From Spirosoma profusum (GTDB lineage: Bacteria; Bacteroidota; Bacteroidia; Cytophagales; Spirosomataceae): a stretch of DNA of 64,000 nucleotides. Of the stretch, positions 1 to 64,000 are shown piece after piece. The stretch covers positions 558,001-622,000 of the forward strand of contig NZ_JACWZY010000001.1 of assembly GCF_014699005.1 (NCBI RefSeq). Direction: 5' to 3'. Within the stretch, counting starts at the first letter, position 1. Each line of letters opens with the position of its first letter. The notes under the pieces are model-generated. The model was not told the origin of the DNA, did no database searches, and saw only the letters and a program-made list of their open reading frames with translations. The position numbers and the translations under genes are program-made.

Positions 1-279
1 CGTGCTGCTTGGGTAAAACTAAACGGAACCATTAACGGCGAAGCACTGACCCTGGTTTTGTCAGATGATCCGAAGAATCCGGGCTATCCAACGTACTGGC
101 ACGCACGTGGCTACGGATTGTTTGCTGCTAACCCGCTGGCCCCTTCCGTATTTAGTAACAACAAGGAAAAACCAATGAATTTTACGCTTCAGCCCGGTAA
201 GGACGTTACGTTCCATTATCGGCTCCTGATTCAGTCGGGCAACGTTTCAGATGCTGCACTTACTACATTGATTAAGTAA
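1..279 (+). CDS. DUF6807 (PmoA-family) protein, C-terminal fragment
   Basis: The reading frame is open from the first base, so the gene starts outside the window and only about 92 C-terminal residues are visible. The segment YPTYWHARGYGLFAANPL followed by a strand-rich stretch with FTLQPGKDVTF matches the conserved C-terminal block of the DUF6807 or PmoA-like family. These are beta-sandwich proteins common in Bacteroidota and Planctomycetota, often secreted and found near sugar oxidoreductases. Their biochemical role is not firmly known. A strong terminator follows at 305-358. The family call rests on motif recognition. Confidence 0.8.
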   Translation, partial: RAAWVKLNGTINGEALTLVLSDDPKNPGYPTYWHARGYGLFAANPLAPSVFSNNKEKPMNFTLQPGKDVTFHYRLLIQSGNVSDAALTTLIK

Positions 280-304
280 CTGACTGATAATTAAGTTAAT
301 ATTT

Positions 305-358
305 ATACGAGCCTACGCGGGGTTTTTACCTATTTGCGTAGGCTCGTATGTTTTTTTA
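305..358 (+). terminator. Intrinsic terminator after the DUF6807 gene
   Basis: A perfect 14-bp stem pairs 305-318 with 336-349, around a 17-nt loop, and is followed by a run of T. It lies 25 bases after the stop codon at 279. Confidence 0.9.
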
Positions 359-646
359 TGACTTGTAGGCAGTATATTAGCTACTTCGTACGTAGCGCTT
401 AAAGGCACCGGACTGATTTTATGATCCTCTTTTAGTTGACCAAAAATAAAACTATACGTCAAAAGAAGATAGGTAACAGGTCTGCTTTAGCAAAAATGCG
501 CTTTAGTCAACTAATAAGGTTTCAAGTAACTAACTCCCATTCTTGATAATAGAATTAAGTTGAAAAATAGTAACAATAAGGCTTCATTTTTTTGGCATGT
601 TATTTGTGAGACGGCTTTATTAGTGCATCTAAACGCACTAGTGCTT
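359..646. other. Non-coding spacer upstream of the secreted protein gene
   Basis: This AT-rich stretch separates a terminator from the likely start at 647. I see no exact TAnnTTTG promoter, no RNA gene and no convincing ORF. An in-frame TTG at 560 would extend the following gene by 29 residues, but the signal peptide fits better with the ATG at 647. Confidence 0.5.
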
Positions 647-2212
647 ATGCCTTATTTCCCATATCGTAAACAATTTTCTCGGTTTGGTGCCATTGTGATT
701 GCCCTGATGATGGTGCAGGAAATAATGATTGCTCAGCCCAGATTCTCTACTAACCCCCGTAATATTTCACCTGCCGCCCGCCAGGGTGCGCCGACCGATG
801 AAACCACTATTGAAAATGGGCAGATTAAGGTTGGAGTTAGTACGGCATACGGTGGTTCTATTACGTACATGGCTTTTCTCGACAGTAAAGGAGGAAAGGT
901 GCAAACGACCAATATGGTTAATAATCCAGACCTCGGTCGTCAGATACAGATTGCCATTTATGGAGGCCCTAAAGATTATTCTAAAAATGGAGATCCAGGA
1001 TGGGTGGGCTTAGGCTGGAATCCGATACAGGCAGGCGATGTTTACGGCAACCCTTCGCAGGTGGTTTCAATTCAGAAGCAATCGAACCAGATTTACGTTA
1101 AAACTATACCCAAACAATTTGCCTATAATAACGAGCCTGGAGAAAGTACCATTGAGCATTGGATTCGGCTGGAAGGTAACGTAATAAAGGTTCATGCCAA
1201 GGTGGTTCTGTCACGTACTGATAAAACACAGTATGCGGCCAGGCAGCAGGAAATGCCTTGTATGTATCTGAATTCAGACTATAAGACAACGTGGTATTAC
1301 AAAGGTAATACCCCGTTTACCAATGCCCCTCTTGATGCTTTAAAGCCTACATTTCCAAATAATTACGTATACGGAGAGGCATCTCCAACAGAACCCTGGA
1401 TGGCTTCGGTGAATGATAATGGATATGGCGTCGGCCTGTACGTACCTAATAACTATGAGTGGAAATGGGGCTATTTTGGTGACTCAGGCAACAACTCTGA
1501 ATTCAGTACGTCGTCGTCATACGTAGCGGCTACTAATTTCGTTCTGCTCGATCATAACATCACCCACGAGTGGGATTATGAGTTTGTATTGGGGCACTAT
1601 AACGAGATTCGGCAGTACGTTTATACCCAGCCGCGCCCGACCTCCGGTCCAAATTATAAGTTCAGTTCAACTCGTAATGGCTGGTATTATTACACAGCTA
1701 GAGACAGCGGATGGCCTATTAACAATAAATTGCACATTCTCTTGGAAGATCCTGAGAATGATCATATTAAATCCCCCTATTTTTTCTGGAAAGGTCGTGA
1801 TACGCCAAAAATGTATATTCGGGGGGCTTTCAAGACGCAAAGCAGCAGCTTTAGATTAAGTTGGCGCCGGATAGAGGATAAGGTATTAGACCGTGACCCT
1901 AATCGGTATACGGAATTTCCAGTAATTAACGACGGTCAGATGCGGACCTATGTGGTTGACTTGAGTCAAAATTCGAACTGGTTGAATTATAACATCGGCC
2001 AACTAGAATTACGTTCTGTATCGACAGCAAAAGGCCCTGACGACTGGGTTGAACTTGAATGGATTGCCCAAAGCGCTAACGGGCCAAGCGATACACCTGA
2101 TGTAAAACCGCCTGATCCACCAGATCCAAACCCACCGCTTGTTTGTCAGCCGGGTTGTATTCCCATCGTGGTGAAGAAAACCCGATATATTATGGCAAAT
2201 CGGAAGCGTTAA
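647..2212 (+). CDS. Secreted protein of unknown function, beta-rich
   Basis: I do not recognise this 521-residue family. The ATG at 647 is chosen because it opens a signal peptide: basic YRKQFSR, then GAIVIALMMVQ, ending near AQP. An in-frame TTG at 560 is an alternative. The body is rich in Tyr, Trp, Asn and Gly, as in beta-sandwich carbohydrate-active proteins, and the region around residues 50-330 could be a mutarotase-like sandwich (a guess). The C-terminus has a proline linker (PPDPPDPNPP) and a short tail with CQPGCIPIVV and basic residues. That tail is unlike a classical T9SS sorting domain but could be an anchoring signal. A hairpin terminator follows. Confidence 0.75.
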   Translation: MPYFPYRKQFSRFGAIVIALMMVQEIMIAQPRFSTNPRNISPAARQGAPTDETTIENGQIKVGVSTAYGGSITYMAFLDSKGGKVQTTNMVNNPDLGRQIQIAIYGGPKDYSKNGDPGWVGLGWNPIQAGDVYGNPSQVVSIQKQSNQIYVKTIPKQFAYNNEPGESTIEHWIRLEGNVIKVHAKVVLSRTDKTQYAARQQEMPCMYLNSDYKTTWYYKGNTPFTNAPLDALKPTFPNNYVYGEASPTEPWMASVNDNGYGVGLYVPNNYEWKWGYFGDSGNNSEFSTSSSYVAATNFVLLDHNITHEWDYEFVLGHYNEIRQYVYTQPRPTSGPNYKFSSTRNGWYYYTARDSGWPINNKLHILLEDPENDHIKSPYFFWKGRDTPKMYIRGAFKTQSSSFRLSWRRIEDKVLDRDPNRYTEFPVINDGQMRTYVVDLSQNSNWLNYNIGQLELRSVSTAKGPDDWVELEWIAQSANGPSDTPDVKPPDPPDPNPPLVCQPGCIPIVVKKTRYIMANRKR

Positions 2213-2224
2213 AGCCGGCTATTA

Positions 2225-2264
2225 CAAAAAAAGAGACATGATACGTATCATGTCTCTTTTTTTG
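2225..2264. terminator. 40-bp perfect palindrome, likely bidirectional terminator
   Basis: The 40 bases are exactly self-complementary. They have A-rich and T-rich ends, GAGACATG/CATGTCTC inner arms and GATACGTATC at the centre. It sits between convergent genes ending at 2212 and 2334, so it can terminate both. The centre is also the extended form of the TACGT word enriched in this window. Confidence 0.85.
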
Positions 2265-2333
2265 TGTGATGATAAATAAGCTATCCGGCGTAAGCTGAAT
2301 TTTTGGCCTTCCTGACTTTGACGACAGCGTCTG

Positions 2334-10240: not shown

Positions 10241-11938
10241 TTAGAATCCATCATTTTGTTTAAACCCTCCATTCTCTGTTCGGTCGATCTGAGTTTGCGG
10301 AATGGGGCGAAGGTTGTGCGTCTCTTTTACGTTTGCCGCTCCATCCGGGTTGTATTTTTTAACCCGGTCCACTAGAAGTCCCCAGCGTTTTAGATCCATC
10401 CAACGGGTTTGCTCACCGGCAAGTTCGCGGGCGCGCTCTTCGTAGATCGTTTCCATCGTTACGTCGGCGGCTTTGAGTTCCATTGCGGTTTCTTTGCCGG
10501 GATTAGCTGCCCGCCGACGTACTACGTTGATAGCAGCAGTGGCTTCGGTCGTTTTACCCTGACGTAGTTGCGCTTCGGCCAGAATCAGATACGTTTCGGC
10601 TAATCGGAAGGCAATGAAATCGCGGCTGCCTTGTTCGTAGGTCAGGTCAGGACGGTTCGGATCAAGGAATTTCTGCAACGTCGGGAATAACGCTGCCGAA
10701 TAAGCGCTCGGCACTAAGACTTGATAAGGCTTGGCAGCCCGCTGCGCCTTTGTCCACTCAACCCCTGGAATGTAAATAGCCGTGTCACCCGCTTTCAAGG
10801 TTATCTTAGCCTTACTGTCGTCAAAAGACGTATTCAAACCTGTACCTGGGTTATTGCTCAGCCATGTATCCTTGAACGTTTTCTTATAGCGAGAATCATT
10901 CACACGATCTTTGAAAACAGTTTCAAGCAGGTAAGTTGTTGGGCGTAGCCGTTTAAAGGGACGGCCATTGGCAATATCGCGTTTCATACCGGGCTGCACG
11001 TCATACTGCATACCAAAGTACAAGTGCAGCTTATCACCGTCACCATTATTCGTATTGGCCGAATTAATGTTGGTAAGCGGATCAGTTGTGTATTGTACCG
11101 AGAAAACAACCTCGTCGTTGATTTCACCGGCACCTTGAGCGAATACGCTGGCAAAATCTGGTAACAACTTCAGGCTGTAATTGCTAATTACGTTCTGTGC
11201 GTAGGTTGCTGCTTTTGAGTAATCATCAGCGGCTTTGGCTGATGAAGTGGCTTTGGTCAGATAAACCTTGGCCAGCAAGTGCTCAGCAGCCGATTTGGTA
11301 GCCCGTCCATAATCACTGGCACCCTGTGCTGCTGCTCTAACGGCAGGCAGATCGGCGAGGGAAGCTTCCAGGTCAGCCGTAATTTGTTTATAAATATCGG
11401 CTTCCGATGCCCGGCTAGTTGCTTTCGTTGGTCCCAGCGTTTCTTTCAACCGCAGGTCAACTGCTCCGAACTGTTGTACCAGAATAAAGTAGTAGTGCGC
11501 CCGCAGAAACTTCATCTCTGCAACCCGCAGTTTTCGTATAGCGTCCGAAACGGAAGCTGCCGGAGCACGCTCAATAACTGCGTTGGTGGTGTTGATACCT
11601 TTATATATCTCCTCCCACATCTGCTGAATAATATCGACGAAGCTATTCATCTGGGTGTCATAGAAGTGAAACCCTTTATAGCTACCATCGGCACCGGCCT
11701 GATAGATATCTGTACCATATTCGGTCATGGTCAAACCGCGTTCCGAACCATAAAAATTCCGCATGGATGAATAAGCGGCTTTACTGGCATCTTCGAAGCC
11801 CTTTGGCGTGTTGATGTAATCGTTCCCAATCAGGGAGATTACTTTTTCATCCAATATATCCTTACAGGCCTGACCGCTCAACATCAGAGCAGAAAGCGCG
11901 AGGATGCGGAATGATTTTGGCGAAAATAATGAGTTCAT
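10241..11938 (-). CDS. SusD/RagB family nutrient-binding outer membrane lipoprotein
   Basis: The extracellular glycan-binding lid that works with the SusC transporter encoded just upstream. The 565-residue protein has a lipoprotein signal ending LMLSGQAC with lipidated Cys25. SusD_N signatures include the region around KGINTTNAVIERA and EMKFLRAHYYFILVQQFGAVDL (about 135-160). SusD C-terminal features include FIAFRLAETYLILAEAQLRQGKT, INVVRRRAA, ERARELAGEQTRWMDLKRW and a final LRPIPQTQID near 545. The ligand is unknown. It is 96 bases after the susC-like gene, with AATGG-word inverted repeats in the gap. Confidence 0.96.
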   Translation of the reverse strand: MNSLFSPKSFRILALSALMLSGQACKDILDEKVISLIGNDYINTPKGFEDASKAAYSSMRNFYGSERGLTMTEYGTDIYQAGADGSYKGFHFYDTQMNSFVDIIQQMWEEIYKGINTTNAVIERAPAASVSDAIRKLRVAEMKFLRAHYYFILVQQFGAVDLRLKETLGPTKATSRASEADIYKQITADLEASLADLPAVRAAAQGASDYGRATKSAAEHLLAKVYLTKATSSAKAADDYSKAATYAQNVISNYSLKLLPDFASVFAQGAGEINDEVVFSVQYTTDPLTNINSANTNNGDGDKLHLYFGMQYDVQPGMKRDIANGRPFKRLRPTTYLLETVFKDRVNDSRYKKTFKDTWLSNNPGTGLNTSFDDSKAKITLKAGDTAIYIPGVEWTKAQRAAKPYQVLVPSAYSAALFPTLQKFLDPNRPDLTYEQGSRDFIAFRLAETYLILAEAQLRQGKTTEATAAINVVRRRAANPGKETAMELKAADVTMETIYEERARELAGEQTRWMDLKRWGLLVDRVKKYNPDGAANVKETHNLRPIPQTQIDRTENGGFKQNDGF

Positions 11939-24620: not shown

Positions 24621-26819
24621 CTAAGCGTAATCAATAGCCATTTGCGCCACTTCAGACAGTACGTCATCGACAGTTTCTTTTAACTCTGAGCCCATCCGCA
24701 AGTAATCAGTTGGATATTCATCTTTTAAGAAATGCAACGTAGCGTAATAAAGGGGCTTGAAGCGGTCTTTCAACTGCCATTCTTCCTGCTGGAAATAGTT
24801 GTATGCGGTGTGGTATTGTTTTTTAGCGAGGAGGAGCTCTAAAAACTCTTTTGTTAAGCGGTTAAGAGGATCATTGAAAATAGAGTTTTTATTATTTAAG
24901 TGTGAAAGGATACCATCTATATATTTATTTAATGTATAGCTAGTTAAGTAGTAATCATTCCATAGGTTAATTATATCATAGACGAAAAAAGCCCTTATAT
25001 CCTTCACGGTATTTACCGCTTTTTGAATGAATTTTTCAACAATGGAAAAACTGATATTTTTCCTATTTGCTAATTTATTTGTGAAGTATTGAATTGCTAT
25101 TTCCGCAGCAATTCTTGATTTATCAGTACTGAATAAGTTCTTCTTGACTTCACCATTAATTTCTATGTCAATTTTAACCCCATTTACTAAGCCAATTACA
25201 GCTGCTAAACTAACCGATTGATGGTCATTTATATCATTTATTAAATACTCTTTTTTATCTGTAAATGATTTAATTAAGTTCTCTTCAGCTAATAACGTTT
25301 CATCATTCATTAAATAGCAAGCTGATAAGTCTAATAAAATTGCTTCGTTTTTATTATTAAAACTCGATAAAAATTTAATTGCTTCTGCGTATTTGCCTGA
25401 ATGGATTATCTCAGTTACTTGCTCTTGTTTGGAATAGGTTATATTGGCTGCCAGTGAGTTATATCCCTTTGTTATCAAATATATTCTCGTTGTTTTTTTT
25501 AATTTATCTTCTATTTCTTCATCTTTAATAATAGTGCTAAATGCTGTCGTTAAATACAGAGCTGCTTCGGGATCCAAAGTACCAACTTCCATTGCTTTTA
25601 AATGTCCATCAATACGTTCTTGCATCCATTCTTCATCACCTGCAAACATCGTTTCAAAAAAACGTATCAGCCATAAGACACGCTGGTCTGTTTTCCGGCC
25701 GAAACGCATTAAATACCAGATGTTGAAAAAGCGTTCATCGAGTCGATAAAGGTGGTTTTTGGTTTTTGTTTCTACTTTCTCTACTACGTTATTATCAATC
25801 AGCTGCTTCAATTGCGCCGATACTACTTTACTTTCCAGACGTACTACTTGGGCTAATTCTTTAGCGCTGGCAGCATCCCATGCCTGAGCGAGTGCGGCTA
25901 CAATTTTCTGTTGTTGAGCAGGTAAGTCGTCCAGGCGGTGTTTGTAGAGAGGTGTTACACGGTCGAGTAGTATGTTCAGATCGCGGAAAACTGAGCCGGA
26001 ACCATTTTCAACCAAGATTTCAAATAATAACACCATCGTTCGTATGACTCCACCTGTGAGTCGGCGGATGGCTTCGATACGTCCCGGTTGGCGTTCAATC
26101 AATTGCTGGACAGCTTCGGTGTGATACGTCTCACCCAGTTTCAGAAAGAGTTCAATAGCTTCCTGTTTGGCAAGTCCTTCTAAATGAATCATTTTGAAGA
26201 ACTCATAGAACGGTTTGGTGTAATCATGTACCTGTTCAATGGCTACCGACGTAGCACCAATGAGTCGCAATTCGGACGTAGTAAGTAGTATCTCACGCAA
26301 TCGTTTCTCTTCCTGCGTATCTAACTTTTTCAGTACGTCTCCTATGTTGTCAATCAGCAACAGCAATTTTTTATTCTGCTTCTGTAATGCGTCAATAATT
26401 GCCTGGAAAGCCCTCTGTTCGTAATCATCCTGCCCATACAGCTTTGTTACGTTGTCATACAAATCGGCGAATGCTATGTCGGCTTCTCCAAGATATTGAG
26501 CGGTACGTTCCCACACATCGGCCAGCGAGCCAATTCCATATTCTTCTTCGTTGAATACAATTGGAATTAGACGCTGGCGCAGTTCGGGCGTGTTTTCGAT
26601 TTCGTAAGCGATACGAAGTAACAGCGTCGTTTTGCCCATGCCCCGAATCCCCTGAATTAGATAATGCTGCTCGGGTTTAGTCATTGTCGAGTCGCGTATA
26701 TCCCGGAAAATTCGCTCGAATTTCTGTTTACGGGCAATGAACCCGGCAATCAGGGCTTCTTTGCTCTGGTTGTGCGGATTATAGATGGTCGCAATGAGCG
26801 GTTGTGAATTAGCAGACAT
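24621..26819 (-). CDS. STAND-like P-loop ATPase with helical repeat C-terminus
   Basis: A 732-residue protein starting at MSANSQPLIA; the frame is open further upstream but that overlaps the preceding gene. The P-loop GIRGMGKTT is at residues 57-65 and Walker B KLLLLIDNIG at 151-160 (Asp157). A winged-helix-like part follows (AQVVRLESKVVSAQLKQLIDNNVVEK), then YRLDERFFNIWYLMRFG, typical of archaeal-ATPase/MNS-type STAND NTPases. The C-terminal ~330 residues are helical, TPR-like. DNA for residues about 404-693 is AT-rich (25-33 percent GC on counted lines) and lacks the TACGT word. It overlaps the upstream ATPase gene by 11 bases. Function unknown; perhaps signalling or defence. Confidence 0.82.
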   Translation of the reverse strand: MSANSQPLIATIYNPHNQSKEALIAGFIARKQKFERIFRDIRDSTMTKPEQHYLIQGIRGMGKTTLLLRIAYEIENTPELRQRLIPIVFNEEEYGIGSLADVWERTAQYLGEADIAFADLYDNVTKLYGQDDYEQRAFQAIIDALQKQNKKLLLLIDNIGDVLKKLDTQEEKRLREILLTTSELRLIGATSVAIEQVHDYTKPFYEFFKMIHLEGLAKQEAIELFLKLGETYHTEAVQQLIERQPGRIEAIRRLTGGVIRTMVLLFEILVENGSGSVFRDLNILLDRVTPLYKHRLDDLPAQQQKIVAALAQAWDAASAKELAQVVRLESKVVSAQLKQLIDNNVVEKVETKTKNHLYRLDERFFNIWYLMRFGRKTDQRVLWLIRFFETMFAGDEEWMQERIDGHLKAMEVGTLDPEAALYLTTAFSTIIKDEEIEDKLKKTTRIYLITKGYNSLAANITYSKQEQVTEIIHSGKYAEAIKFLSSFNNKNEAILLDLSACYLMNDETLLAEENLIKSFTDKKEYLINDINDHQSVSLAAVIGLVNGVKIDIEINGEVKKNLFSTDKSRIAAEIAIQYFTNKLANRKNISFSIVEKFIQKAVNTVKDIRAFFVYDIINLWNDYYLTSYTLNKYIDGILSHLNNKNSIFNDPLNRLTKEFLELLLAKKQYHTAYNYFQQEEWQLKDRFKPLYYATLHFLKDEYPTDYLRMGSELKETVDDVLSEVAQMAIDYA

Positions 26820-27993
26820 ATTTTTTCCACCAGTTTTTGAGAATAGACGAATTGAAACGATATGCTGTTCCATCGGCTGTTTGATGCAGATAACCCTCAT
26901 ATTCCAGTGATTCGACGGTAGCCTTATAATTGTCGGTGATGCCGTACTTAACTGCCAAGTCATGGACGACGGATTTTTCCAATGGTGATTCCTCAGTAGC
27001 CCGATTCAATACGTCATGCACAAATTGATATTCAGCTCCGGGTTCAAGTCGCTTTTTCAGCCGTTCGTAATACTGTTCGAAATAGATTTTGTTTCGCTGA
27101 TGAAAAATCTGCTGGTATGCCTGTTCTGCTTTGGCTTGATCAATTGGATTACCACTACTTTCAAATACGTCGATAATCTCCTGTACTAATAATTGAACAT
27201 GAAAAGGCATTAACCAGTCAATTTTCTGTAGAGTGAAACGAATCGTATCCTCATCAATTTGAATATCCTCCGGCCCAATAAGTTGACGGAAAAGTGAGCA
27301 GGCTTCGTCTTCAGTCAGCGAAGGAACGTCGATGTACTGTAACTGATTGACAAGGTCGCTAACTTCAAGTTTCTTGACTAATGGTTGCAGGCAAATAGAA
27401 CCCGTCAGCAGAAACTGCACTTTACTAGTCAGTTTGCGATTGTGGGTTAATTCACGGAAAAGCTGTAGAAATCGCCGAGCTTCCTGTTTTCCATGTTTCA
27501 GCATAATATTATCAATGGTCTCAGTAAACTCATCGACCATAATAATTAGTTTGCCACCGTCGAGATCCAATTCTTCCAGCATTTTTTCAAAATCGGTCTG
27601 AAAGTTTATTGGCTCTCCTTTATCTAGTGAAAGATCCAAGAACGGTACAGAAACTTTCAGGTTTATGCGTTGAAGTAGCGCACTGGCGACCTTCTTTAAC
27701 GTATCGGTTACTTTCAACATCGTGCGAAAAGCGGGGCTATCAATAACCTGCTTTGCCAGTTCTTTATAGAAGCCATCTACCGAATCAATTGACTGAGTAA
27801 TAGCATAAACGTACTGTTGGTCAGCTTCAGGGTTTTCCTGAAGGTGGTTCATGATAGACGTTTTACCAACACGTCTTGGGGCAGATAGATATACCCAATT
27901 AAATGCTCGCAAAGCCCGACGAATCTTCCGTACGATCTGTGGCCGCTCAAAAAAGTCGTTTCCTGAAACCGCCTGTCCAATAATATTTCTCAT
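26809..27993 (-). CDS. AAA/archaeal-ATPase-type P-loop ATPase
   Basis: A 394-residue protein with P-loop APRRVGKTS (38-46), Walker B GKLIIMVDEF (147-156, Asp154-Glu155), a sensor-type segment FLLTGS near 210 and a C-terminal winged helix ending FNSSILKNWWKKYV, typical of archaeal ATPase-like STAND proteins. It is the first gene of a two-ATPase operon: its stop at 26809-26811 overlaps the next start at 26819, so translation is probably coupled. Three regularly spaced repeats lie directly upstream. I see no effector domain. The function is not known. Confidence 0.85.
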   Translation of the reverse strand: MRNIIGQAVSGNDFFERPQIVRKIRRALRAFNWVYLSAPRRVGKTSIMNHLQENPEADQQYVYAITQSIDSVDGFYKELAKQVIDSPAFRTMLKVTDTLKKVASALLQRINLKVSVPFLDLSLDKGEPINFQTDFEKMLEELDLDGGKLIIMVDEFTETIDNIMLKHGKQEARRFLQLFRELTHNRKLTSKVQFLLTGSICLQPLVKKLEVSDLVNQLQYIDVPSLTEDEACSLFRQLIGPEDIQIDEDTIRFTLQKIDWLMPFHVQLLVQEIIDVFESSGNPIDQAKAEQAYQQIFHQRNKIYFEQYYERLKKRLEPGAEYQFVHDVLNRATEESPLEKSVVHDLAVKYGITDNYKATVESLEYEGYLHQTADGTAYRFNSSILKNWWKKYVC

Positions 27994-43069: not shown

Positions 43070-44656
43070 ATGGCAGGTTCAAAAGAGTCACCCCGTCAGA
43101 AGATGATCGGGATGATGTATCTGGTATTAACCGCAATGTTGGCTCTCCAAGTCACATCGGCCATTCTGGAAAAGTTTGTACTTATTAACAATAGCTTAGA
43201 GCAGTCAACTGGGGCGGTTAGTAAAGTCAATCAGGCAACGGTTGATAATATCCGCGCTACGGTAGAGAAATCGGGTAACCGAGCTACTGACTTAGCTATT
43301 GTTAAACAGGCAGACGAAGTGCGGAAAATAACGTCCGATATTGTTGCTGAGGTCGATAAACTAAAAGAACAGGTTGTTGAGGCTGGTGGTGGCCGTGATG
43401 AGTCTGGTAATATCAAAAACTTGAGTGAAGAAGAAAAAGTAGCTCAATTAATGATAGGAACCTCTCGTAATGGGGCTGCTTTTAAGTTGAAGGACCAGTT
43501 GAACGGATATATTGATAATGTATCTAAATACTCAAGTAATAAATACGCACCACTGGCGCTAGACGGCAAGGATGATCCTATCGCAAACCGGTCCCCGGAT
43601 CAACGTCGGAAAGATTTTGCTGAATTGAATTTTGCTCAGACACCAGTACCCGCTGCCTTGGCAGTATTGAGCCAAAAACAAGCGGATATTCGTCGGATTG
43701 AAGGTGAAGTTCTTGACCTGTTAGCTAGCAAAGTTGGCGCACAGGATGTTAAGTTCGACAAAATTATTGCCATGCTTAGCATGGATTCGAAAGTCGTTGT
43801 AGCGGGCACGAAGTTTAAAGGTCAGATGTTCCTTGCTGCTTCTTCATCGGGTATTCAGCCACGTATGAGTCTGAATGGTGGTTCTGTACGTATGCAGGAT
43901 GGACAAGGTATTGTTGAATTTACGGCTCAGGGTGGTACCTACGATAAAAGTGGGCTGTCTCGCCGGGTTCTCACGGGTTCAATCGCCTATCAGACACCAG
44001 CTGGTTTGAAAACAGTACCTCTTTCAGCTGAGTATTTTGTAGCGAAACCATCTTATCAGATTGAAACCGGAACCATGCCACCTTTATATTTGGGTTGTGC
44101 TAATAAGTTAAGCATTCAGAGTCCTCAATTAGGTGCACTCTGGAATCCAAACTTTTCAGCTGATGGTGCGTCTGTTGTTTCATCTGGCGAAAAGGGGAAA
44201 ATTACTGTAGTGCCAAGCGCCGCTAGCGTAGCATTAAATATTAGTAATGCGGGTAGTCTGTTAGGAACAGAACGTTTTAAAGTTAATAAAGTACCTCGCC
44301 CAACCTTGCAAATTTCGGTAGGTGGAACGCCAGCGAACGATCCTCGTGGTGTACCCGTGTCATCGGCACGTAGCGTGAAAATTCAGGCTGTAGCTGATCC
44401 TAGTTTTGCCGCTTATTCACCAGACGATGCGAACTTCCGTACAACAGGTGCCACTGTTTCGCTGGTACGTGGCGTAAAGCGTGTTACGTTCGTAACTGTA
44501 CCGGCTGGTGGTGGTTCTATAGCCGCTATTGCTCAGGAAGCTCAACCAGGAGACCGTATTGTCATTCAAGTTGAGGGTGTACAACGCCGGAATTTCCGTG
44601 GTGAAATTAGCGACGTACCGATGGGGGCTCCACTTGCACAAGTTTCGCTCTATTAA
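43070..44656 (+). CDS. gldM: Gliding motility / T9SS protein GldM
   Basis: An inner membrane protein whose single N-terminal helix (about 12-31, IGMMYLVLTAMLALQVTSAI) pairs with GldL in the motor and whose long periplasmic domain spans towards the GldK/GldN ring. At 528 residues it is family size. The N-terminal ESPRQKMIGMMYLVLTAMLALQ block is diagnostic. The periplasmic part contains the GldM N-terminal helical region, then Ig-like domains (VVAGTKFKGQMFLAAS; YFVAKPSYQIETG; LYLGCANKLSIQSP; GGTPANDPRGVPVSSARSVK). It is co-directional with gldL and gldN. Confidence 0.97.
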   Translation: MAGSKESPRQKMIGMMYLVLTAMLALQVTSAILEKFVLINNSLEQSTGAVSKVNQATVDNIRATVEKSGNRATDLAIVKQADEVRKITSDIVAEVDKLKEQVVEAGGGRDESGNIKNLSEEEKVAQLMIGTSRNGAAFKLKDQLNGYIDNVSKYSSNKYAPLALDGKDDPIANRSPDQRRKDFAELNFAQTPVPAALAVLSQKQADIRRIEGEVLDLLASKVGAQDVKFDKIIAMLSMDSKVVVAGTKFKGQMFLAASSSGIQPRMSLNGGSVRMQDGQGIVEFTAQGGTYDKSGLSRRVLTGSIAYQTPAGLKTVPLSAEYFVAKPSYQIETGTMPPLYLGCANKLSIQSPQLGALWNPNFSADGASVVSSGEKGKITVVPSAASVALNISNAGSLLGTERFKVNKVPRPTLQISVGGTPANDPRGVPVSSARSVKIQAVADPSFAAYSPDDANFRTTGATVSLVRGVKRVTFVTVPAGGGSIAAIAQEAQPGDRIVIQVEGVQRRNFRGEISDVPMGAPLAQVSLY

Positions 44657-47727: not shown

Positions 47728-47832
47728 AATAGTTTGTAACACAGAGATACGCGGAGAGTAAAAGAGATTCACAAAGAGTAATCCTCAGTGAATCTCTTTT
47801 ACTCTCCGCGTATCTCTGTGTTACAAACTATT
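47728..47832. repeat. 45-bp perfect inverted repeat between PBP and uvrC genes
   Basis: Left arm 47728-47772 and right arm 47788-47832 are exact reverse complements with a 15-base spacer. Words include CACAGAGATACGCGGAGAG and GAGATTCAC. The right arm covers the first two bases of the PBP stop codon (minus strand, 47831-47833). Its words resemble those of the repeat at 9062-9150. It probably acts as a terminator or mRNA 3' end structure. Confidence 0.95.
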
Positions 47833-50206
47833 ATTGCAAAATTTCGTCCTCGTCCTCTGGTACCACCTTCGGCGGAATGTAGCGCTGTGAAGAATCAATG
47901 TGATAACCGCCACAATCAATCTTGAAATCATTTGGCTTCCGGAAAGGCTCCGGACGATAATTAGTTAACGTTTTATCGGCGTAGATTTTCTGCATATATG
48001 TGGCCCAGGCAGGCATAGCGATACGTCCTCCCTGACCATATTCAATAGAACGGAAGTGGATAGAGCGGTCGTCGCCACCCACCCAGAGTCCCGAAACCAA
48101 ATGCTGTGTCATTCCCATGAACCAGCCATCCGAATAGTTGGACGTAGTACCCGTTTTAGCAGCAATTTCGTTACCACCTTCCAGTAACTTATACTGGGTA
48201 CGCAGTCGCTGGGCTGTACCGCTTGGTTCTTCTACAGCACCACGCATTAAATGCAGCATTTCGTAAGCTCGATTCGCGCTAATCACCTGATTGCCATTCG
48301 GGCTAAATTGGGCTAAAACATTCCCGTTTTTGTCGGTAATTCGCCAGATCATGACTGGTTTAACCCGGATACCTCCGTTGGCAAACGCGCAATAAGCCGC
48401 TACCATTTCAAAAACCGATACGTCGCTTGTTCCCAGGCAAAGGGTTGGATCTTCTCGCAAATCTTTACTTTCGATGCCCATTTCGTGCGCGTATTTGATC
48501 ACCTCGGCGGCACGTGTTTTCTTAATCAACTGGGCGCTAACAGTGTTAATCGATTGACCTAGCGCTTCACGTAACGATAAACTTTGGTAACTGTATCGAC
48601 CCGTTGAATTTTTAGGTGTCCAGGCCGGGCCGTTATTGTTATCCTCGCCGTGGGCAAACGTAGTGGGTTGGTCAACGAGGTGGCTGCACGGCGTTACAAA
48701 GCCCTGATCCATAGCTGTCAGGTACACAAATGGTTTGAACGTAGAACCTGGCTGCCGGCGTCCTTGCCGCACGTGGTCGAATTTCATGTGCTTGAAATTA
48801 ATACCGCCCACCCATGCTTTTACGTAACCATTACGTGGATCTATCGACGCGAAACCTGTGTTTAGCAGGCGTTTATAGTAACGGATGGAATCCAGCGAAC
48901 TTAAGGTTGTATCTTTTTCATTACGTTTCCCACCATAGACAAACACTTTCATCTTGATTGGCTTTCGCATTTCGCGCCAAATGGCTTGTTCATCGGCCCC
49001 AAACTCGGCTTTCAGTTGTTTATAGCGTGTGGTCCGACGGGCTACGTTTTCAATGAAGCCCGGAATCTCTACGTATCGTTCGTTACGCTTGCCTTTACCT
49101 CTGACTTTGTCCCGCTGTACCCAAGGATTTCGACCGCGCCAGTGTTCGTAAAACTTCCGTTGCTGATCACGCATGTTGGCCATCACCGCTTCTTCTGCGT
49201 AGGTCTGCATCCGCGAGTCGATGGTCGTATAAATCTTCAGGCCGCTGGTATAGAGATCGAGGTCGGCGTCGGGGTTTTCCTCGTTATATTTCTTTATCCA
49301 TTGCCGAAGGTCAGCGCTAATCACCGACCGGAAATAAGCCCCCATTCCGGTGTTCGAGTTTTCGACACTGAAATCGAGTTTTAAGGGCTTACGCTTATAG
49401 GTAAAAAACTGTTCCTGGCTCAGAAACTTGTATTTTTTCATCTGCGACAGCACTACGTTCCGGCGTTCTTTAGTACGTTGCTCAAACAGACGCGGGTTAT
49501 AGAGCGTCGGATTTTTGAGCATACCGACCAGCATCGCAGCTTCTTCTACGTTTAACTGCCAAGGTTCTTTCGCGAAATACGTTTTGGCGGCTGTTTTGAT
49601 CCCATACGTATTGTTACCGAACGAAACCGTGTTCAGGTACATCATCATGATTTCCTGCTTGGTGTAGTTTCGTTCCAGACGTACCGCCAGAATCCATTCT
49701 TTGGTTTTGGCAATGACAAGGCCAATAATCGGGATACTGCCCAAAGCCCCACGAAGTTCTTCCTGGCGCGTATCGAACAGGTTTTTGGCCGTTTGCTGGG
49801 TTAACGTACTGCCGCCACCCGAACTCGACGCATTACGGAAGGTCAGAAAACCACCCACCGCCCGGAAAAGCGAGCGCGGATCAATACCAGAGTGTTTAAT
49901 AAATCGGGCATCTTCGGTAGCCAGCAGTGCCGACGTAACGTTTGGCGACACCTGCGAAATTTCGATAGGTGTGCGGTTTTCAATGTAGTATTTTCCCAGC
50001 AGTTGCTGGTCATAGGTATAAATTTCTGACGCTTCTTCGCTTTTCGGGTTCTCCAGCGCTTTCAGACTGGGCATACCGCCAAAGAGCCACAGGAAATTGT
50101 AACTGACTGCAATAACGTATAATATCAATAACGCAATGCCAATCAGGGAATATCGCCAGAGATTTCGGATAATTGTCCGATAGGGGCCGGACGCAAATTC
50201 AACCAT
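47831..50206 (-). CDS. Class A penicillin-binding protein (PBP1A)
   Basis: A bifunctional peptidoglycan synthase with an N-terminal transmembrane segment (about 18-42), GT51 transglycosylase and transpeptidase domains. The 791-residue protein has the GT51 motifs LLATEDARFIKHSG (catalytic Glu98) and GGSTLTQQTAKNLF, plus RNYTKQEIMMMYLN. The transpeptidase motifs are GSTFKPF (Ser488-x2-Lys491), SINT (SxN) and AAKTGT (KTG). It resembles PBP1A/MrcA of Bacteroidota. It is flanked upstream by sprE with a GGTTTGTTGTTCC inverted repeat. Confidence 0.96.
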   Translation of the reverse strand: MVEFASGPYRTIIRNLWRYSLIGIALLILYVIAVSYNFLWLFGGMPSLKALENPKSEEASEIYTYDQQLLGKYYIENRTPIEISQVSPNVTSALLATEDARFIKHSGIDPRSLFRAVGGFLTFRNASSSGGGSTLTQQTAKNLFDTRQEELRGALGSIPIIGLVIAKTKEWILAVRLERNYTKQEIMMMYLNTVSFGNNTYGIKTAAKTYFAKEPWQLNVEEAAMLVGMLKNPTLYNPRLFEQRTKERRNVVLSQMKKYKFLSQEQFFTYKRKPLKLDFSVENSNTGMGAYFRSVISADLRQWIKKYNEENPDADLDLYTSGLKIYTTIDSRMQTYAEEAVMANMRDQQRKFYEHWRGRNPWVQRDKVRGKGKRNERYVEIPGFIENVARRTTRYKQLKAEFGADEQAIWREMRKPIKMKVFVYGGKRNEKDTTLSSLDSIRYYKRLLNTGFASIDPRNGYVKAWVGGINFKHMKFDHVRQGRRQPGSTFKPFVYLTAMDQGFVTPCSHLVDQPTTFAHGEDNNNGPAWTPKNSTGRYSYQSLSLREALGQSINTVSAQLIKKTRAAEVIKYAHEMGIESKDLREDPTLCLGTSDVSVFEMVAAYCAFANGGIRVKPVMIWRITDKNGNVLAQFSPNGNQVISANRAYEMLHLMRGAVEEPSGTAQRLRTQYKLLEGGNEIAAKTGTTSNYSDGWFMGMTQHLVSGLWVGGDDRSIHFRSIEYGQGGRIAMPAWATYMQKIYADKTLTNYRPEPFRKPNDFKIDCGGYHIDSSQRYIPPKVVPEDEDEILQ

Positions 50207-50296: not shown

Positions 50297-52552
50297 TTAC
50301 TTTCGTTTTGCGGTTGCCTGTTCAGCGGCCGTCTGCATTTCCTTCACGCGGGGAAGGAGCTGGCTCGCCGGGTAGTCGCGTACAAATTCGTTGAGAGCCT
50401 GCCGGTAAGCGTCTACAGTTTGCATTTTACCGACCAGCATAACACGTAGCAGGGCCAATTTATCTTCTAATTGTGTACCGGCAAACGTACGTAGTGCATT
50501 TTCGGCCTGCGCCAATGCTTCGGTATTATTGTTGGCTTTATAAAGTTCATAAATAGCCGTATACTTTTTCAAGGCCTGCGCTTCGGCATCCGTTGTTTGC
50601 CCGGCGCTACGTCCGCTTAAACGGGCGTAGGACGTATTCGGAAATTCGGCCAGTAATTTATCTTTCCAGGGGGATGCTTTACCCAACTGCTCGTTCGATA
50701 GATGCAACAAGTAATATACTTCGGGTTTTTGCAGCGTATTGGGGTATCGGGTTAGTAGCTGTTCGAACGTAGTGATCGCATCCGTCGGTTGATTAAGTTG
50801 AAGTTTATAGAGCTTCCCTAATCGATAAAGCGCATTTTCGATACGTTGGTTAGACGCTGCCTGAGCTTCTTTCGTAAACGGGATCTGACTCTTCATAACA
50901 GTTTTCTGCGCCATTCTCGCTTGCGCTGGACTCGTTGGGCCAGCACCCGCAACTGGTGGAGTGTCAGACAATTGTACTGGCAAGTTTGGATTAATCGAGT
51001 TAGCGGGCGAATTCCCTGAAACAGGGCTATTCAATCCGGCAACCGATGCAGAAGCTTCCTTATTACTACGTCGCCAGTTGTCTTCAAGGGTGCGATTTCC
51101 CCAGCGAGTCGTAAATTCCTGTCGCCCCTGACTCAGTGTCACCGGATTATAAAGTGCCCAGCGTTCGGCGGGCTGGAGGTTTGAGTTGGTGGCTCCGGGC
51201 ACTACGCTCGTATTACCATTTGTAGCACGATCAACAATCTGTTTGGCTAAATCGGCCTGCGCTTTATCTTCTTTTTCGCGCTGATCAATTACTTTGTCGA
51301 GTAGTTTATTGAGCGCAGCCGAATCGAGCTGCGCCAGGTGGAGCAGACTGTCTTCAGTACGTATCGTTGATTTATACTGCACGAATTCGTCAAGCGTTTT
51401 TTTGCGGGCAGCCAACGTAGCGTAATCGAGCGATTGTTTAGGCATCAAGGCCAAAGCGCTGTCATAGTATACTTTAGCCCGGTCGTAATTGCCTTTCTTT
51501 TCGTAATACAACTTTCCAATTTCCAGATACGTATACGGAACCTGCGTGGTGTTTGAACCCGCTGCCTGAATTGACTGCGTATATAACTGAATGGCCTTAT
51601 CGACCCGGCCGCTACGTGCTTCGAGCAACCCCATCGTAAAATAAATCTTGTCTTTCAAATCCTCATTTTTACGATCCTTGAGCATCCGCTCAAACGTTTC
51701 GTTCGATTGGGCGAGCCGCTTCTGATCGCCAGTCAGGCCGTTACTTTGGATGGCATAGAGGTTGGCGTAGAAAGATTGGTCGTAAGTTGGTCGCGATTGT
51801 AGTACCTGCCGATACTGGTCGACCGCTTTGGCTGGCTGACCAATAACGTCGTAAAGCTGACCGGCAATCAGGTGAAGGCGAGCTGTTGCTTCTCCTTTCT
51901 TCAGAACTGGAAACGTAGCTTCCAGAATGCCTACCGACGTAGCATATTCGCCTTGTCGCTCATGGAGATAGGCTTTAGTCAGGTAAAAATCGCGCGTGTT
52001 GACTTTGTTCAGTGGCTGATTGCGGAGGTATTCTGCTACGTTCAGCGCGTTGGTATAATCGCTGGCTTCGATATACGCCCGCATAAGGCCAACCAACGCC
52101 GTATGTTTATCATTTTCGTTGGTGCCTTTGGTGTTGACGTACTTGAACACTTCAATGGCATTGGGCAAATCCTGTTTCAGCAATCGCGCCCGACCAATGA
52201 GATTATAGGCATCGTCGAGCCATTTGCTGTTCTGATGGCGTTCGGGGATGAGCGAGGCTTTTTTTATGGCATCGTCAATCTGTGGTTTCACCGCCGAAAT
52301 AGAATTGGAATCGACGGGAAGCAGAATAGGCAGTACCTGGTTGTAATTCTCCTGGCGTGCTTTAAACAGAATCTGCTCAGCCTCGTTTATCTGATCGCGG
52401 GCAATAACATAAGCGTTGTAATGCGCCGTCAGGTTATGATAGCCTTTGCTGATCGGTTTGGTACTGTACTGAGAACACGACACCAGTCCGTCGGCCAGTA
52501 GAACAAAGACCGCAAGGAATAAAAATGGATGATTAAAAAAACAGCGGGACAT
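50297..52552 (-). CDS. sprE: Type IX secretion lipoprotein SprE/PorW (TPR protein)
   Basis: A 751-residue outer-membrane lipoprotein required for T9SS secretion and gliding in relatives. The lipoprotein signal ends LLADGLVSC with Cys26. The SprE/PorW-type mature N-terminus KGYHNLTAHYNAYVIARDQI follows near 35-54. TPR-like helices fill about 60-430 (AYLHERQGEYATSVGILEATF, YTYLEIGKLYYEKKGNYDRAKVYYD) and 575-735, with a low-complexity Ser/Pro/Asn linker near 450-560. Placement next to gldKLMN on the chromosome supports the call, although it reads on the opposite strand. Confidence 0.88.
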   Translation of the reverse strand: MSRCFFNHPFLFLAVFVLLADGLVSCSQYSTKPISKGYHNLTAHYNAYVIARDQINEAEQILFKARQENYNQVLPILLPVDSNSISAVKPQIDDAIKKASLIPERHQNSKWLDDAYNLIGRARLLKQDLPNAIEVFKYVNTKGTNENDKHTALVGLMRAYIEASDYTNALNVAEYLRNQPLNKVNTRDFYLTKAYLHERQGEYATSVGILEATFPVLKKGEATARLHLIAGQLYDVIGQPAKAVDQYRQVLQSRPTYDQSFYANLYAIQSNGLTGDQKRLAQSNETFERMLKDRKNEDLKDKIYFTMGLLEARSGRVDKAIQLYTQSIQAAGSNTTQVPYTYLEIGKLYYEKKGNYDRAKVYYDSALALMPKQSLDYATLAARKKTLDEFVQYKSTIRTEDSLLHLAQLDSAALNKLLDKVIDQREKEDKAQADLAKQIVDRATNGNTSVVPGATNSNLQPAERWALYNPVTLSQGRQEFTTRWGNRTLEDNWRRSNKEASASVAGLNSPVSGNSPANSINPNLPVQLSDTPPVAGAGPTSPAQARMAQKTVMKSQIPFTKEAQAASNQRIENALYRLGKLYKLQLNQPTDAITTFEQLLTRYPNTLQKPEVYYLLHLSNEQLGKASPWKDKLLAEFPNTSYARLSGRSAGQTTDAEAQALKKYTAIYELYKANNNTEALAQAENALRTFAGTQLEDKLALLRVMLVGKMQTVDAYRQALNEFVRDYPASQLLPRVKEMQTAAEQATAKRK

Positions 52553-61380: not shown

Positions 61381-62247
61381 ATGAAAAAGTCGGTTTTTGT
61401 TTGTCTTTTATGCTTAGTTGTGCAGCAAAGTTTAGCACAGCAAATAGATCGTTTTCGTGATATACAGGCACTGGATGAGCATTTTCAGCCTAAGCCAGAC
61501 CGGAAGCATCCACTTATTCTCGCCCATCGGGGTGGACCGGGGCAGGGTGACACAGAAAACTCGATCACTACGTTCGATAAGACGGCCATAGCGTTGCCAG
61601 ACGCTATTATTGAAATGGATGTACGAATGACCCAGGACAGTACGCTCGTTCTGCTCCACGACGCTACGTTAAATCGAGAATCAGATGCGAAAGGGAACGT
61701 AGCAGAATGGACATTCAACAACCTGAAGAAGATTCGGCTTAAAACGCTGGCCGGAGAACTAACTAACGAACGCATTCCTACGTTCGCCGACGTATTAAAC
61801 TGGAATCAGAATCGCTACGTACTGGCATTGGACGTAAAACCTGGAACCGATCTGCTACGTACCATGAAGGAAGTTCAGAAATATGGTGCCGAACATTCAG
61901 TTTTCGTGATTTGCTATTCTCCAGCCGACGCCCAGCGAATGCGCAAACTCTACCCGAATCTTTGGCTGGCTTTAGGTGTAAGTGGCATGTCTGACGTAGA
62001 AAAATGGGAAATTAATCTGCCCGTTTCAGGCCGATTAATTGCGTTAACACCCCAAAAATTACAAGAATCCGCCTTTTATGAACGATTGCATAAACTGGGT
62101 ATCCTTTGCTCAGTGGGTACGTATGGCGCGGGCCAGCTCGATGAAATGCCCATCAAAGACGCTGCTTCTGGTTATCGTAATACGTTTCGGCAAGGCGGTG
62201 ATATTTTGACAACGGACCGTCCAAAAGAAGTGGCTGATTTATTTTAA
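61381..62247 (+). CDS. Secreted glycerophosphodiester phosphodiesterase
   Basis: A 288-residue exported GDPD that hydrolyses glycerophosphodiesters to glycerol 3-phosphate. The signal peptide is VFVCLLCLVVQQSLAQQ. The TIM-barrel GDPD motifs are LILAHRGGPGQGDTENS (His49, Arg50, Glu59), EMDVRMTQDSTLVLLHDATLN and LALDVKPGTD. Length is standard. It is followed 5 bases later by an MBL hydrolase gene, so the two form an operon, possibly for phosphate scavenging from lipids. Confidence 0.95.
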   Translation: MKKSVFVCLLCLVVQQSLAQQIDRFRDIQALDEHFQPKPDRKHPLILAHRGGPGQGDTENSITTFDKTAIALPDAIIEMDVRMTQDSTLVLLHDATLNRESDAKGNVAEWTFNNLKKIRLKTLAGELTNERIPTFADVLNWNQNRYVLALDVKPGTDLLRTMKEVQKYGAEHSVFVICYSPADAQRMRKLYPNLWLALGVSGMSDVEKWEINLPVSGRLIALTPQKLQESAFYERLHKLGILCSVGTYGAGQLDEMPIKDAASGYRNTFRQGGDILTTDRPKEVADLF

Positions 62248-62252
62248 TAACT

Positions 62253-63506
62253 ATGCTACGTCACTATCTGCTCGTTTTTTCGCTACTCATTTATTCGGTT
62301 GGGAGCAACGCCCAGCAGACCGGACAGCCGTTACCTGACTGGCAACAGGGTCAGCTTGATATTCACCATATCAACACCGGTCAGGGAAATGCTACGTTCG
62401 CCATTCTTCCCGACGGTACTACGTTGTTAATCGACGCCGGAGCCATCAACTCCCTCGACTGGCGGACTAATAAACCGCGAAATATTCCAACAAAGCCTGA
62501 TAACTCTCGTCAGGCTGGTGAATGGATTGCCCGTTACGTCCGCAAAGTGCTGAATTTTCAGCCAAAGCCAGTCATTGATTATGCCATCATTACCCATTTT
62601 CACGACGATCACATGGGAATGTCGCTGAACGTAACGAAACGCTCAGCCGGTGGCTACGTAGCAACCGGAATTACAGAAGTCAATGACTTTATTCCAATAC
62701 ACAAAATTATAGATCGCGGCTGGCCCGATTATTCGTATCCTCGCTCGTTTGTCAGCGATTCTATGGTGAGCAATTACCGACAATACCTGAACTGGCAGGT
62801 GAAGCACAATAAACTGGCTGTTGAACGATTTCAGGCCGGACGTAGCGATCAGATTAAGCTGTTATATAAACCAGCAACGTATCGGGACAACTTTGAGATT
62901 AAAAATCTGATGGTAAATGGCGAAATGTGGACAGGGCAGGGGAGTACTACCCGGTCGCTATTTCCTGACCTGAGTACACTGAAACCGGCAAATTATCCCA
63001 ATGAAAATATGTGTAGCGTTGTCTTTCTGCTACGTTACGGCAACTTCGACTATTTTTCCGGGGGCGACATTCAGGGCGTACTTCAGTTTGGCGCGCCGGC
63101 CTGGCACGATGTAGAAACACCGTTAGCTAACGTAGCGGGGCCGGTTGATGTACACTTACTTAATCACCACGGCTATCCTGATTCCGAAAACGGTACGTTG
63201 CTGGCCAGTTTGCGACCACGCGTTCTGGTGATTCCTGCCTGGGCGTCTTCACATCCGGGACACGACGTATTGGAACGTATTTATTCAGAGCAAACGTACC
63301 AGGAACCTCGCGATGTGTTTGCAACAAATTTGCTCAGTGAGGCTAAAACTGCCATTCAGGATTTTCTACCCCGACTCAAAAGCGAATCCGGGCACGTAGT
63401 GATACGTGTGGCTAAAGGCGGTAATACGTATCAGGTGCTAGTGCTGGATGATACAAGTGAGTCGTTCAGAATTAAGGCCGTACATGGGCCCTACCAGGCG
63501 CAGTAA
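62253..63506 (+). CDS. Secreted metallo-beta-lactamase fold hydrolase (ComEC/Rec2-like group)
   Basis: A 417-residue exported protein with signal peptide LLVFSLLIYSVGSNAQQ. The MBL motifs are INTGQGNATFAILPDGTTLLIDAG near 40-63 and THFHDDHMGM with His115, His117, Asp119 and His120. LLNHHGYPDSENGTLLASLRP resembles the late-domain His region of ComEC/Rec2-type MBL proteins. It has no ComEC membrane domain. It is co-transcribed with the GDPD gene (5-base gap), so it may act on a phosphodiester or nucleotide substrate in the periplasm. Confidence 0.88.
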   Translation: MLRHYLLVFSLLIYSVGSNAQQTGQPLPDWQQGQLDIHHINTGQGNATFAILPDGTTLLIDAGAINSLDWRTNKPRNIPTKPDNSRQAGEWIARYVRKVLNFQPKPVIDYAIITHFHDDHMGMSLNVTKRSAGGYVATGITEVNDFIPIHKIIDRGWPDYSYPRSFVSDSMVSNYRQYLNWQVKHNKLAVERFQAGRSDQIKLLYKPATYRDNFEIKNLMVNGEMWTGQGSTTRSLFPDLSTLKPANYPNENMCSVVFLLRYGNFDYFSGGDIQGVLQFGAPAWHDVETPLANVAGPVDVHLLNHHGYPDSENGTLLASLRPRVLVIPAWASSHPGHDVLERIYSEQTYQEPRDVFATNLLSEAKTAIQDFLPRLKSESGHVVIRVAKGGNTYQVLVLDDTSESFRIKAVHGPYQAQ

Positions 63507-63512
63507 TCGAAA

Positions 63513-64000
63513 TCAGGCAGACTTAGGTACTTCTTTTCGCTTTGTCTTCAGCAAGTCGGTACCGGCTTGATAACCCATCACAATAAGGCGGCCAATATCG
63601 TCCGAATTAAACTTCATCAGATTAAGGAACAAAGGTTCTGTAGGCCGGACGACAGTCAGATTCAGATTGCGACCGTGTAATTTTTCGCGTTCAGCGAAAC
63701 GTTCCGCCCAGGCAATGTCATTGTTTACCAATTGGTTAACCGTAATGTCTTTCACCCGATCCATCAAATTCAACAGGTTGCGGTAGTTGAATTTTTCGTT
63801 GTAAATTTTTCGGGCATGGCAAGCCACACAGGCAATGTCGGTCGCTCCATCCTCGATTGCGACACGTAGCGGAGCCACTTCCCGCAATCCACCGTCCAGA
63901 AACGCCCGGCGGTGATCGCCACCAATCTGTACGGCAGGCATCAGAAAAGGCAGCGAACTGCTCGCAAATACGTAATCCAGAAAATTAGGGTCGTGGACAT
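63513..64000 (-). CDS. Patatin-like phospholipase, C-terminal part
   Basis: The gene enters from beyond base 64000 on the minus strand; about 162 C-terminal residues are visible. The frame is open to the window edge. SSSLPFLMPAVQIGG followed by FLDGGLREVAPL carries the patatin Asp of the Ser-Asp dyad (DGG). The N-terminal GxSxG is not in the window. Unusual for a patatin is a CVACHARKIYNEKFNY segment (CxxCH, c-type heme-like in form), so a c-heme site is possible but not proven. It is convergent with the MBL gene. Confidence 0.8.
   Translation of the reverse strand, partial: VHDPNFLDYVFASSSLPFLMPAVQIGGDHRRAFLDGGLREVAPLRVAIEDGATDIACVACHARKIYNEKFNYRNLLNLMDRVKDITVNQLVNNDIAWAERFAEREKLHGRNLNLTVVRPTEPLFLNLMKFNSDDIGRLIVMGYQAGTDLLKTKRKEVPKSA

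Follow-up and report, generated by a model that had tools for sequence, protein, structure and literature searches.

The question raised by a 64,000-nucleotide stretch of Spirosoma profusum DNA (assembly GCF_014699005.1, contig NZ_JACWZY010000001.1, positions 558,001 to 622,000; hereafter, the window) is why one short word, TACGT or its complement ACGTA, recurs in it so often. The window (G000:C11:558001-622000) belongs to an 8.73-Mb draft genome of 81 contigs, labelled G000. An earlier note had claimed that the word far exceeds chance on both strands, in coding and non-coding DNA, and had named a methyltransferase target, a nucleoid-protein site, and a mutation bias as possible functions. We find that TACGT is the core of a longer word, YRNTACGT; Spirosoma and Fibrisoma show a real and strong drive toward this sharply delimited 8-bp word, and the class of mechanism proposed for it below is likely.

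The forward strand of the window contains 229 copies of TACGT and 223 of ACGTA, 452 in all (66 TACGTA are counted in both), while base composition predicts 133 (3.4-fold excess) and a third-order Markov model 317 (1.42-fold). The Markov ratio understates the excess, because TACG and ACGT are themselves raised by the word. Among all 5-mers in the window, the core word had the top Markov z, and among those containing CG, the top composition ratio (the runner-up was at 2.2-fold); 200 first-order Markov simulations of the window gave a mean of 126 core words (sd 12, maximum 153). In a 464-kb sample, made of the window and 400 kb more from the same genome (5% of the genome), the word ranked first of all 5-mers by composition ratio (3.8-fold; second, 2.5-fold). 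Over the whole genome, GCTACGT occurred 10552 times versus 1191 times for the reversed word, and AACGTAGC was present in 4503 copies versus 259 for its reversed control. Hand counts given earlier for three stretches agreed well with the computed ones (Table 1).

The excess is not spread over CG-containing words at large. A low-word baseline consisted of ten named low-word Spirosoma loci and 80 kb of G001, which were picked for being low and are not a random sample; relative to it, core words in the 464 kb were 4.5-fold more frequent. When the sixteen NACGTN words were compared in this way, the seven with a 5' T or a 3' A (TACGTN/NACGTA) stood at 3.3-5.9-fold, and the nine with neither at 0.36-1.12-fold. 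Codon choice followed the word: threonine in the NNT-ACN-T context was encoded by ACG in 80% of cases (28% in low genomes), arginine after NTA by CGT in 75% (20%), and leucine before CGT by CTA in 59% (4%); in matched control contexts, codon use was close to normal. The over-representation thus stood up to the Markov model, to other CG words, and to related genomes.

The limits of the word were determined by splitting synonymous openings for TACGT (places where it can be had without changing the protein) according to their fixed neighbours. The unit proved to be the asymmetric 8-bp YRNTACGT, which replaced a reading of the flanks as codon effects. Position -3 has to be a pyrimidine, with log odds of 2.4 for either C or T and of 0.4 for either purine, and position -2 has to be a purine (2.74 for G and 1.86 for A, versus 0.55 for T and -0.04 for C); there are lesser effects at -1 (C best), +1, and +2, and other positions up to nine bases on each side scored 1.5-2.0. 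In low genomes, all flank log odds were within -0.5 to +0.5. The motif is not palindromic, for its 3' side has no matching preference, and two of the five core positions are G or C. The iterated word of the earlier note is therefore real, but TACGT is an incomplete version of it, and the recurrent contexts GCTACGT, AACGTAGC, and GATACGTATC are instances of YRNTACGT rather than separate contexts.

Measured with its full motif, the excess is much larger. The window carries 296 copies of YRNTACGT/ACGTANYR (156 on the plus and 140 on the minus strand) versus 33.3 expected from composition, and the 464-kb sample 2381 versus 234, a 10.2-fold excess, or one motif per 195 bp on both strands in coding and intergenic DNA; extrapolation from this sample gives ca. 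45,000 copies per genome. The other three flank classes reached 1.25-2.0-fold in the same sample. The motif was at 0.98-fold in low genomes, at 6.65-fold in S. terrae and S. validum combined, and at 3.36-fold in Fibrisoma, where it is looser (RNTACGT): a purine is preferred at -2, and a pyrimidine at -3 has little weight. In spacers, the base at -2 was G in 235 cases, A in 169, T in 51, and C in 29 (22, 27, 28, and 11 in low genomes), and the intergenic excess was 3.0-fold versus 0.85-fold in low genomes. The claim that the word populates both strands and non-coding DNA thus holds.

In genes, the motif is close to saturation. It fills 5564 of 6028 synonymous openings (92%) in the window's genome, and the median use per gene was 0.94 over 216 genes with at least 10 openings (range 0.55-1.0). 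Openings for YGNTACGT and YANTACGT were used in 94% and 90% of cases, respectively, and those with RC, RT, or YC flanks in 29-37%, where the preference was near zero. A TACGT use index calculated around a species marker gene was about zero in low species, and most Dyadobacter had negative values. No signal of helical or nucleosome-like periodicity was observed at 10-11.5 bp, and no regular spacing. Use on the plus and minus strands was nearly equal, 0.559/0.545 in F. montanum and 0.522/0.515 in F. limi over 200-kb stretches of one skew, and 0.768/0.754 in this genome; an orientation word of the Chi/KOPS type, which is likewise short, over-represented, and non-palindromic, was rejected on these grounds. 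In this genome, the preference was ca. 2.0-2.1 when another motif lay 5-11 bp away and ca. 3.1 beyond 15 bp, stayed flat from 15 to 200 bp, and fell to 2.5 and then to 1.3 at greater distances, a drop that we attribute to foreign or little-affected genes. With TACGT alone, flanks not yet considered, the close-range drop was seen in four data sets.

The kinds of base change that lead to the motif were then of interest. All 15 single-step synonymous classes for TACGT (5 transitions and 10 transversions) were shifted toward the word, with S of 1.5-3.05. The same shift was seen in every one of the 19 full-motif classes that had sufficient counts (S 1.6-4.5 in this genome, 1.6-3.5 in S. terrae and S. 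validum; position -2 had too few counts and was left out). Near-misses that cannot be converted synonymously stood at 1.03-1.25-fold of low genomes at core positions 2-5 (0.79-1.40-fold in S. terrae and S. validum) and were raised at the remaining three positions. Synonymously convertible near-misses were reduced to 0.38-0.46-fold at core positions 2-5, with no depletion at -3, -2, and the first T. Since near-misses are depleted at four core positions if convertible, and not depleted if not, the motif is favoured, and near-misses are not harmful; avoidance or restriction of near-miss words was rejected accordingly. Restriction-site avoidance also involves a sharp, recognition-like word, but YRNTACGT is enriched. 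Because all testable steps are shifted and non-convertible near-misses are not depleted, we conclude that a single mutation bias, near-site restriction, and codon preference are not sufficient causes.

To follow the direction of evolution, F. limi and F. montanum were compared over 111 ortholog pairs (122 kb aligned, 36% difference at four-fold sites), with equal codon changes elsewhere as a control. TACGT was gained at 2.26 times the control rate (confidence interval [CI] 1.70-3.16) and lost at 0.74 times (0.53-1.07), and ranked first of 487 5-mers both by odds and by gain. For RNTACGT, the gain was 3.59-fold (2.51-5.39) and the loss 0.82-fold (0.56-1.40), and for YNTACGT the gain was 1.73-fold (0.99-2.69). 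Five low-word pairs, with 71 informative RNTACGT sites, yielded an odds ratio of 0.70, a gain of 1.33-fold (0.58-2.88), and a loss of 1.90-fold (0.79-6.99). Relative to these pairs, the Fibrisoma gain is ca. 2.7-fold and the loss ca. 0.43-fold; a fixation bias S of ca. 1.8 predicts 2.2 and 0.35 under a model that assumes a steady state, which may not hold. The excess turnover in Fibrisoma is not taken as a sign of directed mutation, for low pairs also show raised turnover in such contexts, and protection from mutation alone is ruled out by the raised gain. Since both gain and loss, set against the low-pair baseline, fit a fixation bias, we conclude that the motifs are being made and not merely retained.

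The high-word state is patchy among genomes. GCTACGT exceeded its reversed control 2.4-8.9-fold in 8 of 36 genomes of the genus (G000, G033, G006, G035, G023, G019, G028, and G024, by a threshold that we set at 2.3-fold or more) and stood at 0.7-2.0-fold in the other 28; two Fibrisoma, F. limi and F. montanum, are high as well. Five labels presumably correspond to named genomes (G033, S. terrae; G035, S. validum; G028, RYN_304; G034, S. utsteinense; G006, S. endophyticum). In a one-gene tree of 32 rows, with four forks weakly supported, the high state occupied six separate branches: Fibrisoma; S. terrae; the metagenome-assembled genome (MAG) LF-bin-320; the window; the MAG RYN_304; and S. endophyticum with S. 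validum. Judged from this tree, several gains or several losses would fit equally well. In a survey of 291 genomes of the order, 10 of them from the genus, the densest genome outside the genus (G253) had ca. 231 GCTACGT per Mb, and the eight high genomes have 283-1209; ratios to the reversed word are misleading in this survey where that word is rare, as in G157 (162 versus 7), in which TGCATCG is nearly missing. GCTACGT itself is nearly absent from genus g53 of family f9 (G132, G146, and G171; 3-7 copies versus 256-327 reversed). A scan of six low genomes for other driven words (80 kb each, 3+3 letters, gaps 0-8) revealed none of note except TTAnnnnnnnTAA in G004 (2.1-fold), with power so limited that it also missed TACGT in Fibrisoma, G019, and G023.

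The core-word excess is missing from DNA that bears foreign marks. Of 7 openings in a transposase gene none is used, and there are none in a reverse-transcriptase gene. The few survivors of GMGGCG, a word nearly absent from these genomes (see below), lie in DNA of the same kind: ten stretches of 3 kb around them, of which some overlap, contain 45 TACGT versus 61.7 expected.

The explanation that we favour, tentatively, is a site-by-site drive toward the recognition motif of a predicted DNA-binding protein. YRNTACGT would be the motif of a sequence-specific protein active in some Spirosoma and Fibrisoma lineages only, single-base variants that create it would be favoured over those that destroy it wherever the encoded protein is unharmed, and such favour, acting site by site, would account for the 92% occupancy of free positions in this genome. 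The favour is most likely intracellular, a molecular drive by biased repair or gene conversion rather than the usefulness of each site, and would amount to a ratchet of the kind proposed for HIP1, here working without a shared methyltransferase. The sharp, asymmetric 8-bp recognition, in which neighbours further out hardly matter, argues for this explanation, as do the 19 of 19 positive steps, the uniform use among genes, the intergenic excess, and the strand independence. The weaker preference near another motif is as expected of a bound protein, and the Fibrisoma gain, with no such preference in the five low-word pairs, and the foreign DNA without excess point the same way. We infer that a protein reads the motif, and that repair or conversion rather than selection acts; of the three functions offered earlier, a putative DNA-binding-protein site fits best. 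That the protein is mobile or easily lost, and that by biasing repair or conversion to its own motif, independently of methylation, it has reshaped almost every free position in a bacterium's genome, and has done so several times over in separate lineages of Spirosoma and Fibrisoma, is a bolder proposal, which we consider possible but doubtful.

Several observations weigh against the drive toward a protein-bound motif. A process blind to strand would not be expected to favour sense over antisense, yet in this genome, unlike in Fibrisoma, sense use is slightly higher (78.4% versus 73.2%). In S. terrae and S. validum, where data are few, no clear close-range drop is seen, and the drop may be a matter of codon context. 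Six of ten low-use genes, with few openings each, are of ordinary chromosomal types (HemD, a LytTR regulator, a PorP/SprF protein). No candidate motif-binding protein turned up among the families searched. Finally, selection and conversion do not differ in the gain and loss rates that they predict, and the Fibrisoma values fit both.

The last point leads to the strongest rival, additive selection, in which an abundant nucleoid-type protein binds YRNTACGT, each site is slightly beneficial, and motif-making alleles fix more often. The gain and loss rates fit the two-sided fixation bias that it calls for, the graded preference (G over A at -2, C best at -1) resembles binding affinity, and the preference in this genome is lower close to another motif. 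However, each of the extrapolated 45,000 sites would need similar selection, and the constant preference between 15 and 200 bp gives no hint that further sites bring less as coverage grows. We regard additive selection as possible, though less probable than the drive proposed above.

A methylation-coupled ratchet, in which the motif is methylated and mismatch repair takes the methylated strand as the correct one, has a precedent in HIP1: in PMC4390886, HIP words go with GATC/CGATCG or matching methyltransferases, and Elhai proposes a methylation-directed repair ratchet. No family tested (C5, N6_N4, D12, Eco57I, DndC, and Vsr; 8 high genomes versus 28 others, Vsr by 15 labels) separated high from low genomes. 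C5 methyltransferases were found in 3 of 8 high genomes and 20 of 28 others, N6_N4 in 5 and 22, D12 in 2 and 11, and Eco57I in all 8 (in some weakly) and 25, and were rejected as drivers; G006 and G019 have no C5, N6_N4, or D12. DndC was above the cut-off in 1 of 8 high genomes and 7 of 28 others, which speaks against a phosphorothioate target. Strong PF02384 (N6_Mtase) matches (E <1e-20) favour the ratchet, for among 16 chosen genomes all 10 high ones and 2 of the 6 low ones had them, but the proteins compared are not orthologous: among six, one pair is 56% identical and the rest 21-29%, and when 21 stretches were grouped at 35% or more, at most 3 fell together. Type I recognition sites are bipartite, unlike this asymmetric motif with its single N. 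Thus, none of the five methyltransferase families searched is common to high genomes as one ortholog (MmeI-type, MT-A70, and other families were not searched), the suggestion of a methyltransferase target finds no support, and we consider a methylation-coupled ratchet improbable.

Still less likely, in our estimate, is a DNA uptake sequence, whereby competent cells prefer motif-bearing fragments and recombination spreads the motif. Occurrence on both strands, a strict core with a softer flank, the looser Fibrisoma dialect, and patchiness among relatives are as in uptake words, for which molecular drive and the same core-and-flank structure are described in the parts of PMC1939737 available to us. 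But one motif per 195 bp would barely discriminate between fragments, and beyond ca. 15 bp a higher local density of motifs does not weaken the preference.

Mutation bias, in which TACGT arises from a single kind of damage or repair (deamination, Vsr-type T:G repair, or polymerase error), is very hard to credit: an intact Vsr gene is present in G000, G024, and G028, but every testable step at nearly every position goes toward the motif, transversions as much as transitions, whereas Vsr repair would leave T:G to C:G changes alone, and Vsr (searched in 15 genome labels, 5 of them seemingly duplicates) is missing or broken in 7 of the 10 high genomes (missing in G006, G019, G023, F. limi, and F. 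montanum) and present in the low-word S. utsteinense, while the G000 copy sits with an MvaI/BcnI-type restriction system. In G033 (C61, 191634-191844) and G035 (C11, 882053-882259), both high-word genomes, the Vsr gene is broken by split frames or an internal stop. On contig C22 of G000 (L094, 180-3252), genes for the MvaI/BcnI-type enzyme, a C5 methyltransferase, and Vsr adjoin, and TACGT occurs 7 times versus 8.5 expected.

Among known systems, HIP1 (GCGATCGC) is the closest in behaviour. Like it and alternate cyanobacterial HIPs, YRNTACGT has a very high genome-wide copy number in coding and intergenic DNA, is patchy, and is gained by substitution bias; unlike HIP1, it has another core, a density of one per 195 bp, and 92% of its openings filled. 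Because it is non-palindromic, and no shared methyltransferase was found, we do not class it as a HIP, a type of word that is palindromic and GC-rich. Uptake sequences of Pasteurellaceae and Neisseriaceae (USS/DUS) share with it the asymmetry, the presence on both strands, the strict core with a soft flank, the dialects, and molecular drive, but YRNTACGT is shorter and far denser, with no sign of density saturation beyond ca. 15 bp. The likeness to HIP1 and uptake words noted earlier is thus apt, for a genome-wide iterated word with a different core. No publication on this motif was found in open-licence PMC literature; subscription journals, preprints, and methylation databases were not covered.

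The features of the window that bear on the word are collected in Table 1. In the marker transglycosylase/transpeptidase, Spirosoma relatives are 87-88% identical, which places the window in that genus.

Table 1. Window features, with counts of the core word and of the full motif
Feature	Position	Strand	Core words	Earlier hand count	Full motifs	TACGT openings used
Densest of the hand-counted stretches	61381..63506	+	33 (28 distinct places)	ca. 29	26	22/26 and 32/35 (gene pair)
GDPD gene	61381-62247	+				
Gene with sub-threshold metallo-beta-lactamase match	62253-63506	+				
Part of SusD-like gene (10241-11938)	10241..11240	-	8	ca. 8	3	
Part of TPR-repeat gene (50297-52552)	51000..52130	-	10 (8 distinct)	ca. 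9	7	35/41 (gene)
Transglycosylase/transpeptidase gene, species marker	47831..50206	-				39/51
Gene for 780 aa with sub-threshold STAND/NACHT ATPase matches, GC 0.39, possibly defence	24621-26963	-				28/40 (normal)

Other word oddities were noted on the way. GMGGCG (GAGGCG and GCGGCG, both strands) occurs 5 times versus 987 Markov-expected in 1.59 Mb of Spirosoma and Fibrisoma, with every other single-base neighbour of GAGGCG at normal frequency; the window has one CGCCGC, at 44218. The scarcity extends to Larkinella (1 versus 56), not to Dyadobacter or Fibrella. In G000, GAGGCG is present 66 times versus 2486 for GCGGAG, with none on C1, C11, and C22 and some clustered on other contigs; because the ten stretches around survivors have no TACGT excess, the ban is not lethal to acquired DNA. 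Genus g32 of family f2 (G056, G071, G086, G113, G140, G154, and G179) has its own near-banned 6-mer, GCGGAG (5-19 copies versus 303-585 of GAGGCG). Of all 4-mers in pooled Spirosoma and Fibrisoma DNA, CTAG has the lowest Markov ratio, yet in Runella L040 and L047 it is at ca. four times the median of compared loci. GCCGGC, CCGCGG, and CCCGGG are at 2.2-3.1 times the median of compared genomes in Fibrisoma L212-L231, so palindrome avoidance is weaker there. On contig C1 of G000 (164078-164733), AACGTAGC occurs four times at an exact 216-bp spacing, which suggests a tandem repeat.

Why a single short word comes to crowd some genomes has long been asked, with HIP1 and uptake sequences as the main known cases. 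The present motif can be delimited, and its strength measured, at single-base resolution; closely related genomes either have the trait or lack it; and openings that are nearly all filled lend the statistics much power. Experiments in culturable species could thus tell selection, biased repair, and uptake apart. In such genomes, a word at the DNA level sets codon choice for the most part, which affects codon-usage, phylogenetic, and binning methods.

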